54,487 bases of DNA from positions 1 through 54,487 of the forward strand of contig NZ_QYTW02000012.1 in the NCBI RefSeq assembly GCF_003605405.2, read 5' to 3'. Shown here piece after piece: positions 29,033-54,487 of this stretch (positions within the stretch are counted from its first letter, which is position 1; every line of letters starts with the position of its first letter). The position numbers and the translations under genes are program-made. This DNA comes from Siminovitchia terrae (GTDB taxonomy: Bacteria; Bacillota; Bacilli; Bacillales; Bacillaceae_C). The notes beneath the pieces were generated by a model that did not search any database, was not told where the DNA came from, and saw only the letters and a list, made by a program, of their open reading frames with translations.

Positions 29033-29680
29033 ATGACAAGCCATAATGAAATACAACCCTTTATTAGATGCGACCAGTTTAATTTTATTAAATTTCAAGT
29101 GAAGCATTTGGTGCATGCCCATTCTACCGTAAAGGATCCAGCCGTTCTAAATGCAATCAAATATGGAGCGCTGGACAAGATAATGAATCTGTTTCCGGAA
29201 ATGAGTGAGGATCATCAGGTTTTTCATAAAATAACCGAAATCGAACAGGACATTCAGGGAAAAAGTTTTCTGGATGCTCTAAAATCGTACGTAATTCCTT
29301 TTAAGCCCATAACGGAAAAAACGGTAGGGAAGCTTTTTCCAAAAGCGGGGAAGCTGAAACTACAATTTTTAAAGAATGTAGATTTTAAAGAACTATCCTA
29401 TTTGGGCTGGTATGATATTCGTTCTGATAAAAAGTTCCTCATTTTTGATTATAAAGGAAAATTAATGGGGATTCATGGAACGTTCAGGCATAAAACAAAA
29501 GGGATTTGTTCTTTATGTAATCATCATGGAGAAGTGGGTTTGTTCATGGCGAATGTAAAAAGCGGGAAAGAAACATTCACTAACCGCGGGAATTATATTT
29601 GCGATGACAGCCATGAATGCAATCAAAACTTGCAAAGACTGGATAAGCTTGAATATTTCATAGAGAACTTAAAAAACTGA
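29033..29680 (+). CDS. FusB/FusC-like elongation factor G-binding protein
   Basis: A 215-aa two-domain protein. The N-terminal helical bundle (~1-130) precedes a C-terminal treble-clef zinc-binding domain (FBP_C type): GWYDIRSDKKFLIFDYKGKL, KGICSLCNHHGEVGLFMANV, and YICDDSHECNQNL with the four expected cysteines. FusB proteins bind EF-G and speed its release from the ribosome, giving fusidic acid resistance or general ribosome rescue. The ATG at 29033 follows AAGGAG. An upstream ATG at 28979 lacks a site. The terminator overlaps the stop codon. Confidence 0.85.
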   Translation: MTSHNEIQPFIRCDQFNFIKFQVKHLVHAHSTVKDPAVLNAIKYGALDKIMNLFPEMSEDHQVFHKITEIEQDIQGKSFLDALKSYVIPFKPITEKTVGKLFPKAGKLKLQFLKNVDFKELSYLGWYDIRSDKKFLIFDYKGKLMGIHGTFRHKTKGICSLCNHHGEVGLFMANVKSGKETFTNRGNYICDDSHECNQNLQRLDKLEYFIENLKN

Positions 29681-29701
29681 GGATCATTCCTCAGTTTTTT
29701 T
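29671..29701 (+). terminator. Terminator overlapping the FusB-like stop codon
   Basis: AAAAAACTGAGGA / TCCTCAGTTTTTT; the TGA stop (29678) is inside the left arm. Confidence 0.9.
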
Positions 29702-29769
29702 GTGTAAGTAAGGAAAATATAACTTGTTATGGAAAGTTTTATTCAAAGGAAGCTTATTCTTCAAGCTAC

Positions 29770-30001
29770 GACGTACAGGAAGTACTAGTGCAAGCGAAGC
29801 GACAGGACGTCGCGCCTTGAGCCAGCCGACGTACAGGAAGTACTAGTGCAAGCGAAGCGACAGGACGTCGCGCCTTGAGCCAGCCGACGTACAGGAAGTA
29901 CTAGTGCAAGCGAAGCGACAGGAAGTCGCGTTCTGAGCCAGCCGCCCTACAGGAAGTACTAGTACCACAGAAGCCACAGGATGTGGCGGCCTGAGGCGTA
30001 A
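29770..30001 (+). repeat. 58-bp tandem array with AGGA-loop hairpins (array A)
   Basis: Four tandem units begin at 29770, 29828, 29886 and 29944. Each holds two tight hairpins: TAC-AGGAA-GTA-type (in GTACAGGAAGTAC) and GCGAC-AGGAC-GTCGC. In unit 4 the second becomes GCCAC-AGGAT-GTGGC and in unit 3 the loop is AGGAA. Stems change in a compensatory way while AGGA in the loop is constant. A further hairpin ATTC-AGGAA-GAAT follows near 30026. No protein-coding frame with start signals fits. Confidence 0.9.
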
Positions 30002-30273
30002 GGATCAAGTCATGCGGAAGTTTATTCAGGAAGAATGTGCTTCTGCTGCACAGTTTATTCAAGGAAGCAATGTTTCCCTCGTCGCAAAGCTGCATGAAGC
30101 ATACTCAAGGAAACTTTTCACGATGTAATTGAAATTAGTAGCTTTGCTGTAGTGGCTGAGGAACTCCCTCATCAAAATTCGCCTTGTGCTTGTCACCTAA
30201 GGCTCAAATAAGAGATAGGTGAAAGTGAATTTTATCTGGAAATGAAAAAGAAAACAGCCATCTAAAGGCTTCC
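30002..30273. repeat. Composite repeat debris downstream of array A
   Basis: 30002-30085 shares a stretch (AAGGATCAAGTCA, GGAAGAATGTGCT, CAGTTTATTCAAGGA) with the sequence after array B at the right edge of the window. 30085-30120 resembles 35440-35500 (GCAAAGCTG, CGAAG/TGAAGC, ACTCAA). 30143-30200 resembles 45668-45700 (GTAGTGGCTGA). No gene is seen. Confidence 0.6.
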
Positions 30274-31155
30274 TTATCTTTCGCAGGCATATCCATCTTT
30301 ATCCCTGTCCATTTTAGCTTGATAGGCGGGATGGCCTTCAGGGACTCCATTTGGGTAAACCTTTCTTAGTTCTGTGCAGTTTTGAAAAAATTCCGTGCCG
30401 CTTTCCGGCTTGGAAGTCTGGCTTTTGGCAGGTTGGCTGTCAGTGGAGGATTGCTGTGAACCTTCTGATGATCCAGCCGAAGATTCTTTAAAGCCTGAAT
30501 CTGTCGCATAGTTTTCGATGGACCAAATACCGATTTCTTTTACTTTAGCTTTTTCTTGTGCTTCCTCATAAGTGGTTAAATGTCTTGTATTTGGAGGGTA
30601 AACATAAGCAACCCGGGCTAAACCTTCTTCCAACAACATCTCTTGCACACTTTTCCCATCGACATACACATAAGCCAGCAAACGCCCGTATTTATCAACA
30701 CGTTCCCCAATGTCGAACTCCAGCGTTAAATCACCACTGTCAACCAGTTGTTTGTTTCGCTCCTTGGCTTCTTCGCCAAACGGCTGCTTACCTAAGCGCG
30801 GGTGGTTTGTTTCGGGCGTATCAATTAACAGGTAGCGGACATTTTGTTCTTTTCCATTGTAGAGGACCTTAATGGTGTCTCCGTCTATCGTTTTGACAAG
30901 TGTTACAGGAATATGATCGATTGTACCGGATGTATCAGTGGATTGATCTTTTGCTGACGTTGGTTCTTGTACTTCCTGTTGTTGAACATCTTTTTTCTGA
31001 TCCTGATTGACCGGAACGCTGTCAACGTCAGAACAACCGCTCAAGGCAAACAGGCTGAGCGCAAGGATAGAAACAGTAATTTTGCGCTTGGACGCTGCTG
31101 TTATAACAATGCCAATTAAAAAAAAGATGAAAATAACTCCCCAGATGACGTTCAT
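30274..31155 (-). CDS. Thermonuclease (SNase) lipoprotein with C-terminal Excalibur domain
   Basis: A 293-aa exported nuclease. The N-terminus has a hydrophobic segment and a lipobox-like LSGC (Cys41) after a second one. SNase-like domain ~80-215: VKTIDGDTIKV, VRYLLIDTPETNHP, FGEEAKERNKQLV, DKYGRLLAYVYVDG contain the catalytic Asp, Arg and Arg/Glu positions of staphylococcal nuclease. The C-terminus (~255-293) is an Excalibur domain (FFQNCTELRKVYPNG, MDRDKDGYACER). I choose ATG 31155 because AAGGAG precedes it; the longer frame to 31338 adds 61 unlikely residues. It degrades extracellular DNA or RNA with calcium. Confidence 0.9.
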   Translation of the reverse strand: MNVIWGVIFIFFLIGIVITAASKRKITVSILALSLFALSGCSDVDSVPVNQDQKKDVQQQEVQEPTSAKDQSTDTSGTIDHIPVTLVKTIDGDTIKVLYNGKEQNVRYLLIDTPETNHPRLGKQPFGEEAKERNKQLVDSGDLTLEFDIGERVDKYGRLLAYVYVDGKSVQEMLLEEGLARVAYVYPPNTRHLTTYEEAQEKAKVKEIGIWSIENYATDSGFKESSAGSSEGSQQSSTDSQPAKSQTSKPESGTEFFQNCTELRKVYPNGVPEGHPAYQAKMDRDKDGYACER

Positions 31156-53936: not shown

Positions 53937-54126
53937 TTAACTTCATTCAGCAGAAGTCTCCCACTTCTATAAGTGGTGAGATGCATATTGTTATTCTATT
54001 CAGTGGGGGTTCAAACCCCGGCTGAATAAAGTTAAAGCCTCCGGCGGATGCCACAGATTTTCAGAGGAAATTTATCGGGCGGAGCTCGATAAAATCTGGG
54101 CGCAAATACGCCAAGGCGCATTTGAT
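53937..54126 (+). repeat. 194-nt structured element, copy R10 (190 nt)
   Basis: Lies between the spoVID stop and its terminator. It has lost four bases after GAGATG, hairpin A is CTCCCACTT CTAT AAGTGGTGAG and hairpin C carries a G-T pair (CGGGC/GCTCG). Confidence 0.9.
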
Positions 54127-54127
54127 T

Positions 54128-54159
54128 AGGAGGATAGATTGGCCGCAATCCTCCTTTTC
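54128..54159 (+). terminator. Terminator of spoVID, displaced by R10
   Basis: AGGAGGA / TCCTCCT with a 14-nt loop, followed by TTTCTT. Confidence 0.7.
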
Positions 54160-54231
54160 TTCAAAAAGTAAGAAAGTATTGAAAGTATAAAATTAGATGA
54201 AATATTTTGTTCATTTTATATATCTAGCTGC

Positions 54232-54405
54232 GACGTACAGGAAGTACTAGTGCAGGCGAAGCGATAGGACGTCGCTGCATGAGCCAGCCGACGTACAGGA
54301 AGTACTAGTGCAGGCGAAGCGACAGGACGTCGCTGCATGAGCCAGCCGACGTACAGGAAGTACTAGTGCCACCGAAGCCACAGGATGTGGCGGCTTGAGG
54401 AGGCC
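54232..54405 (+). repeat. 58-bp tandem array with AGGA-loop hairpins (array B)
   Basis: Three units begin at 54232, 54290 and 54348, followed by the same tail as array A (AAGGATCAAGTCACG, ATTC-AGGAA-GAAT). Loops are AGGAA and AGGAC or AGGAT; stems include GCGAT/GTCGC (wobble), GCGAC/GTCGC and GCCAC/GTGGC. It runs toward the right edge of the window. Confidence 0.9.
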
Positions 54406-54487
54406 AGGCGCCATCGGCGCAAGGATCAAGTCACGCGGAAGTTCATTCAGGAAGAATGTGCTCCTGCGGCACAGCTTATTCAAGGAG
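54406..54487. repeat. Shared tail of the AGGA arrays, running off the window
   Basis: Nearly the same as 29993-30075; it contains one more AGGA-loop hairpin. Incomplete at the window edge. Confidence 0.7.

Follow-up and report, generated by a model that had tools for sequence, protein, structure and literature searches.

What are the arrays of short AGGA-loop hairpins that occur twice in the 54,487-nucleotide stretch of Siminovitchia terrae DNA analyzed here (the window), and could they act as RNA? An initial annotation had read them as a candidate decoy RNA for CsrA, comparable to CsrB/RsmZ, and had offered ordinary intergenic repeats as the alternative. Our analysis supports, with a probability of about 0.7, a reading in which each array is a copy of a mobile repeat that is dispersed, carries no recognized gene of its own and has inserted behind a terminator, on the strand of the upstream gene; in the inferred part of this reading, the AGGA-bearing RNAs would act as a CsrA sponge.

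Array 1 (29769-30000, + strand) consists of four 58-bp units with two AGGA loops each, eight in total, at positions 29777, 29804, 29835, 29862, 29893, 29920, 29951 and 29978. Array 2 (54231-54404, + strand) has three 58-bp units and six loops, at positions 54239, 54266, 54297, 54324, 54355 and 54382. Both were recovered as period-58 tandem repeats (29769-29995, 3.9 copies; 54231-54399, 2.9 copies), and each unit joins a hairpin of the GTAC-AGGAN-GTAC type to one of the GCGAC-AGGAN-GTCGC type on the + strand. An ATTC-AGGAA-GAAT hairpin follows each array, at 30024-30036 in the 3' module of copy 1 (+ strand, loop at 30028) and with its loop at 54449 behind array 2. We inspected every AGGA of both arrays. 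As the initial annotation had stated, all 14 loops read AGGA on the + strand, but the stems do not all hold equally: the fourth GTAC hairpin of array 1 (loop 29951) has three pairs only, and the GCGAT-AGGAC-GTCGC hairpin of array 2 (loop 54266) requires a G-U closing pair. Counting both strands of the whole window, 16 AGGA loops are closed by stems of at least four Watson-Crick pairs, and the arrays with their 3' modules account for 14 of these 16. The same count in 50 order-1 Markov sequences gave a mean of 2.3 and a maximum of 6, which rules out chance hairpins; the arrays, and the hairpin after each of them, are real.

These hairpins are local stems, and folds of the whole RNA differ. The minimum-energy fold of 29724-30220 formed three of the eight array 1 hairpins as well as the ATTC hairpin, with none of the four GTAC hairpins and three of the four remaining ones. 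The corresponding fold of 54163-54487 formed one of the six array 2 hairpins, again together with the ATTC hairpin. No unusual overall stability of the arrays was found on either strand (fold-energy z of -1.1 and -1.0).

The arrays are the bodies of larger elements. Upstream of array 1 lies a gene encoding an EF-G-binding protein (Pfam EF-G-binding_N/FBP_C), followed by its putative terminator at 29676-29701 (+ strand), a hairpin and T-run read by eye; the 60 bases before the array 1 leader reach a fold of -17.3, and 0 of 100 shuffles were as low. Element copy 1 starts immediately 3' of this T-run with a leader (29702-29768, + strand) that is a variant of GTAAAGAAAGTATAA, and it continues beyond the array into a 3' module (30001-30220, + strand, right border approximate) common to C9:47708 and array 2. 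A motif search did not find the usual GCGCTTGCGCTTTTCTTA end in the 3' module of array 1. Copy 2 also starts right behind the T-run of a preceding putative terminator (54128-54161, + strand, read by eye), whose stable fold was equalled by 1 of 100 shuffles. Its leader covers 54163-54230 and its 3' module 54405-54487, both on the + strand, the latter running on to about 54688 of the contig, where it ends in GTGCGTCGCTTTTCTTA. A simple terminator scan listed neither of these window terminators, both of which were read by eye and by folding.

Within the 3' module of array 2, contig position 54488 (L062:589) is a lone N, after which the bases before it recur; this is probably a scaffold join. A second repeat (TTCATTCAGCAGAAG...GGCTGAATAAAG...GGCGCATTTGAT) occupies 53941-54125, just before array 2. 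It recurs beside other arrays (L004, L007, L026 and L028), its orthologous site is empty in L271-L274, and it may represent an IS605-type end.

A simple scan of 29600-30300, around array 1, found no sigma-70-like promoter site and one terminator-like site, on the + strand at 30036-30052. In the array 2 region (53950-54487) there were three weak promoter-like matches where 0.7 would be expected, two of them overlapping on the + strand and one on the - strand. Given the missing promoter-like site at array 1, the few hairpins in the full-length folds and the copies in stable-RNA operons described below, most of which lie on the opposite strand, and given also the csrA-less carriers and ACGA loops reported further on, a dedicated CsrB-like gene is not supported.

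The element is abundant in its own genome, where array 1 as query gave at least 67 matches. Our statistics for this genome cover about 207 kb in 65 stretches, picked because they bear copies, and the copy counts are lower bounds: at least 62 clusters of two or more hairpins at no fewer than 56 sites, with at least 272 hairpins, the largest clusters having 22 and 20. A leader like GTAAAGAAAGTATAA stands upstream of 27 of the 62 clusters and is absent from the other 35, while four controls gave 0 of 62. An end like GCGCTTGCGCTTTTCTTA on the AGGA strand was found by loose matching at 56 of the 62 (11-13 in equal-length controls) and by strict matching at 42 (0-4 in controls). Before the leader, 21 of the 27 leader-bearing clusters have TTTT within 16 bases. 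In 18 of them the preceding 60 bases form a fold reached by at most 5 of 100 shuffles, 14 combine such a fold with a T-run in the last 20 bases, and nine have no stable fold. Two composite elements, C68:99387-100053 (L009, L061) and C15:90363-90779 (L002, L011), carry AGGA hairpins on opposite strands at their two ends.

Relative to congeners, both window arrays are insertions. The array 1 site is empty in all four congeners that have the upstream gene (G024, G025, G026 and G027), which keep that gene's hairpin and T-run and do not have the element; a fifth congener, G028, has no upstream gene and falls outside this comparison. The array 2 site, read in four close named relatives of the 14 loci found, is likewise empty in Bacillus sp. 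HF117, B. norwichensis, Siminovitchia fordii and S. fortis. In these four the adjoining gene is 69-77% identical, and the hairpin and T-run are present with small differences only. Many dispersed copies together with empty orthologous sites characterize a mobile repeat, and the empty sites, the end and leader motifs and the folds before the leader support both its insertion and its placement. The alternative of ordinary intergenic repeats was thus partly right, for the arrays belong to a dispersed repeat that is missing at the orthologous sites of the relatives inspected.

Most likely, this repeat spreads and often lands just behind terminators, where its insertion should be harmless. Judged by its sequence, the usual GCGCTTGCGCTTTTCTTA end reads like a small terminator on the AGGA strand. 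Read-through from the upstream gene would then produce an AGGA-loop RNA reaching up to this terminator-like end, and we consider it moderately supported that such RNAs would carry between 2 and 22 AGGA loops.

The hairpin unit itself has a known counterpart. The Rfam scan of the window gave no family at its cut-off. At a relaxed threshold the minus strand matched Bacillaceae-1 (RF01690) at 29888-29953 (32.9 bits, E 0.0004) and at 29772-29837 (30.6 bits, E 0.0015), the cut-off being 35 bits and the E values referring to a search of 801 bases. Since the window units miss this cut-off, we class them as a diverged relative on the reverse strand; the arrays share the RF01690 layout, in which a pair of hairpins with UCCU/AGGA loops is combined with an outer stem. 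The body of the element consists of two-hairpin units, repeated in tandem, that are related to the RF01690 reverse complement. Elsewhere in the genome the likeness is closer: at least 64 RF01690 matches at E <=0.001 were obtained among 150 scored of 722 candidates, and 32 of the 64 listed reach the cut-off, with the best at up to 70.7 bits. Bacillaceae-1 RNA was described by Weinberg et al. 2010 (PMC2864571), and BSGatlas gives eight Bacillaceae-1 structures in B. subtilis (PMC8208703). According to Gardner and Eldai 2014 (PMC4333381), its discoverers were not confident of the strand, and these authors proposed the RF01690 reverse complement as a CsrA-binding RNA; the accessible text of the literature searched contains no later validation of their proposal. 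At L141, a BsrG match (1394-1705, 83.3 bits) encloses a Bacillaceae-1 match at 1501-1567. At L004 and L005 (about 1501-1566), the hairpin pair of RF01690 belongs to another repeat, which has TGTTCAAAAAGT on one side and the inverted copy on the other; two or more kinds of dispersed repeat thus contain the hairpin module.

What, then, are the hairpins for? One possible answer is that the element itself uses them: in single-stranded form, DNA or RNA, they may be recognized by a putative mobilizing enzyme, in the way that REP hairpins are recognized by TnpA-REP; the strand preference and the likeness to CsrA targets described below would then be by-products. We regard hairpins that serve only the element's movement as at least as likely as a host function, and this explanation as a serious contender, although its chances fall short of even. 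It agrees with insertions that are absent from relatives, with 12 hits of identical score in G434, with the presence of the module in differently bounded repeats such as that of L004 and L005, with sites that adjoin terminators and stable-RNA genes, and with the persistence of hairpins in genomes without csrA. The explanation is weakened by our search for a mobilizing enzyme, which covered the group II maturase domain and found none: the S. terrae genome gave only one fragment, containing a stop, and G014, G015, G019 and G020, each with more than 100 RF01690 matches, gave no maturase at all. Moreover, hairpins acting as DNA should not show the one-strand excess of G-U pairs seen in this genome, and their loop motif need not equal that of CsrB. 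Mobilization by, or derivation from, group IIC introns received no support, as the array-rich genomes searched have no intact maturase.

A function as RNA raises the question of strand. Our own-genome alignment comprised 182 units, 136 of them distinct, and both stems showed compensatory changes. At its third pair, hairpin 1 has T-A in 85 distinct units, G-C in 17 and C-G in 15, and hairpin 2 has G-C in 91 and C-G in 28. On 38 sequences hairpin 2 was 100% paired, with 13 two-sided changes, a number as high in 0 of 500 shuffles; 33 of the 38 rows were RF01690-selected, so that pairing was favored. Read on the AGGA strand, the stems contain 31 G-U and 13 A-C events, each a distinct combination of locus and column (p=0.0096). 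The unpaired columns, counted per distinct unit, contain 76 G-U-type against 100 A-C-type changes, and this difference favors the AGGA strand in this genome. Pointing the other way, an outer-stem column reads A-C on the AGGA strand, and hence U-G on the other, in 99 of the 136 distinct units.

In this genome the neighbors point to the AGGA strand as well. With orientation taken from ORFs of at least 80 aa rather than from annotation, 60 of the 62 clusters had both neighbors. The upstream one lies on the AGGA strand in 48 of these 60, and tandem contexts agree with the AGGA strand 30 times and oppose it nine times (p=0.001). The p values are optimistic, because several clusters lie in one intergenic region and the copies are related. 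Among relatives, 178 sites remained after removal of repeated flanks, of which 138 had both neighbors and 40 were dropped; the upstream neighbor is on the AGGA strand in 89 of the 138, and no tandem-orientation bias was found (44 versus 35, p=0.37).

We also searched relatives with a sequence-only model, which gave matches in 20 of the 20 genomes asked (98 hits, 77 of them distinct in the loci read). In 74 of the 77 distinct units, both stems have a sixth pair that is G-U on the AGGA strand alone, which adds a little weight to that strand, given that the model derives mostly from RF01690-selected units carrying these bases and that our own arrays do not have the pair. The comparison of G-U with A-C changes in this set (6 to 2 and 2 to 3) involves too few events, and copies selected with RF01690 carry a bias to the UCCU strand. 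Altogether, that the AGGA strand is the constrained strand in this genome is moderately supported.

It is on this strand that the loops resemble CsrA targets. CsrB carries about 18 CAGGA(U/A/C)G motifs in hairpin loops, and the SELEX motif of CsrA is RUACARGGAUGU (PMC7652899). The array loops read C-AGGAN-G, and among 298 AGGAN loops with at least four of five Watson-Crick pairs N is A in 128, C in 98, T in 68 and G in 4, so they match the CsrB loop motif. The avoidance of G has a second possible reason, since G would create a full Shine-Dalgarno AGGAGG. The Rfam CsrB model matched the + strand at 29838-30121 with E 0.00024 in the 801-base search, although the 23.2 bits stay below its cut-off of 71. 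The initial annotation had asked whether the host has csrA at all; it does, with fliW, csrA and the flagellin gene (hag) side by side. The flagellin leader beside csrA holds UCACAAGGAUGUGA, which is close to GCCACAGGAUGUGGC of the arrays.

Against this background, a decoy could be the selected function of the hairpins: AGGA RNA would sequester CsrA dimers, possibly one per unit given its two hairpins, and would relieve the repression of targets, hag among them, in parallel to FliW. If CsrA bound the loops, the summed arrays would titrate it. We compared the occurrence of csrA and arrays. In 398 Bacilli genomes, csrA is present in 79 of the 82 with a listed RF01690 match and in 154 of the 316 without one (Fisher p ~1e-17, applied after the class-level overlap of the two lists had been read from tables by eye), an association confounded by phylogeny. 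Among the 151 genomes of G230's family, matches occur in 106 of 134 csrA-bearing and in 7 of 17 csrA-less genomes (Fisher p=0.002), while loss of csrA and loss of arrays within genera go together in the expected direction but not significantly (p=0.17). The genus g102, which has no csrA, fits the decoy proposal in that 7 of its 8 genomes are without a match. In contrast, csrA-less G481 and G488 (both estimated 100% complete) keep arrays, with 20 and at least 31 RF01690 matches, and in the host's own family csrA is present in 34 of the 34 genomes searched and RF01690 matches are listed in 24, leaving 10 with csrA and without a listed match.

The initial annotation had also proposed that stems change while AGGA stays, and had named the conservation of AGGA loops in other copies as a check on its reading. 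Across the 136 distinct units of the own genome the pattern holds. Among relatives, 21 of the 77 loops of each hairpin read ACGA instead; such a loop should not bind CsrA, because GGA is invariant in the motif, and the check therefore counts in part against a sponge. Nevertheless, at least one AGGA per unit is retained in 96 of 98 units of relatives, and in the RF01690-selected set AGGA occupies 71 of 94 first loops and 88 of 94 second loops. The ACGA found in hairpin 2 of 10 of 11 units of csrA-less G481/G488 is uninformative as a sign of decay, since all 12 of 12 units of csrA-bearing G509 also have ACGA there.

The CsrA proposal of the initial annotation thus emerges with its case divided. 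It is strengthened by the loop motif with an N that is almost never G, by stem covariation, by the presence of csrA and by the own-genome strand evidence, including the wobble pairs; it is weakened by strand use in stable-RNA operons, where most copies would yield UCCU RNA, by the csrA-less carriers, by the full-length folds and by the ACGA loops. We therefore regard it as possible but somewhat doubtful that the AGGA-strand RNAs bind CsrA and together form a dispersed sponge beside FliW, and we hold a decoy as the selected function of the hairpins to be similarly tentative. That a mobile repeat has seeded Bacilli with dispersed CsrA sponges, adding AGGA-hairpin arrays, with at least 272 loops here, to the read-through transcripts of dozens of genes, so that copy number and read-through would set CsrA activity together with FliW, seems to us unlikely, though worth stating.

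The stable-RNA operons reverse the picture obtained for the AGGA strand. We read 58 loci of relatives, chosen as the top RF01690 matches and all scanned for tRNA (and all but L148 for rRNA), and found 13 of them within or next to rRNA/tRNA operons. In 11 of these (L105, L108, L110, L114, L115, L136, L137, L144, L147, L150 and L151) the UCCU strand runs in the direction of the operon, and in two (L135 and L139) the AGGA strand does. L006 and L008 of the own genome, which we scanned after noticing tRNAs in them, are also UCCU, giving 13 of 15 operon copies altogether. Strand use thus depends on context. At L114, L136, L137, L108, L110, L135, L139, L147 and L150, the hairpins stand at or within about 11 bases of the 16S 5' end, in both orientations, or directly before 5S, and Bacillaceae-1 hairpins beside 16S or 5S may affect rRNA precursor processing.

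These copies suggest a third explanation, in which the UCCU strand, the one filed in Rfam as Bacillaceae-1, would be the functional RNA, acting for example in 16S/5S/tRNA precursor maturation, and the dispersed arrays are stray copies; the co-directional strand and the several operon copies that abut the 5' end of 16S, 5S or tRNA-Val fit it, but operon-copy positions vary among genomes, with both orientations before 16S within the genus g8, as for insertions, and both the sixth stem pair and the own-genome G-U excess favor AGGA, so we consider it improbable.

We return to the mobile repeat inserted behind terminators as the preferred reading of both arrays. If its CsrA part is true, an RNA antagonist of CsrA would act beside FliW in a Gram-positive host, one with CsrB-like loops by the hundred in addition to its fliW, csrA and flagellin genes. 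Independently of CsrA, the analysis shows relatives of Bacillaceae-1 as insertions whose sites are vacant in congeners; they stand behind terminators and ahead of 16S, 5S and tRNA genes, on a strand that varies with context. Insertion, placement and context-dependent strand use bear on the uncertain strand and function of Bacillaceae-1.

How does this element compare with known systems? REP/REPIN-type and MITE repeats are high-copy intergenic palindromic mobile repeats. The arrays are likewise high-copy, intergenic, palindromic and mobile, but they are longer and modular, and many copies lie directly behind terminators. The main text of a description of the GTAG/CGTC REP families names no Bacillaceae (PMC3733652), and a survey of stem-loop repeats gives the B. 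halodurans families Bhal-1 and Bhal-2 (PMC2267715). Group IIC introns likewise insert after intrinsic terminators (Robart 2007, as cited in PMC7161350); the arrays differ in having no Rfam family at its cut-off in the window and no maturase association. With the CsrB/RsmZ sponge RNAs, the arrays share the repetition of CAGGA(U/A/C)G in hairpin loops (PMC7652899). Unlike those RNAs, array 1 has no promoter that we could find, the copies are dispersed over at least 56 sites, the host has FliW and the match to the Rfam CsrB model is far under its cut-off; a 2020 review called joint control of CsrA by FliW and sRNAs undetermined for any bacterium (PMC7652899). The closest relative is Bacillaceae-1, which has the same two-hairpin unit on the opposite strand; here, an inserted repeat contains the unit in tandem, with up to 22 hairpins per array and an orientation bias for the AGGA strand in this genome. 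The CsrA-decoy idea is an already published hypothesis, proposed for the same hairpins by Gardner and Eldai 2014 (PMC4333381), to whose account, as far as its accessible text goes, we add the arrays, their mobility, the copy counts, the co-occurrence with csrA and the strand test. What is new is that both arrays are insertions directly behind a terminator and that this hairpin unit has a mobile form built as a tandem array.
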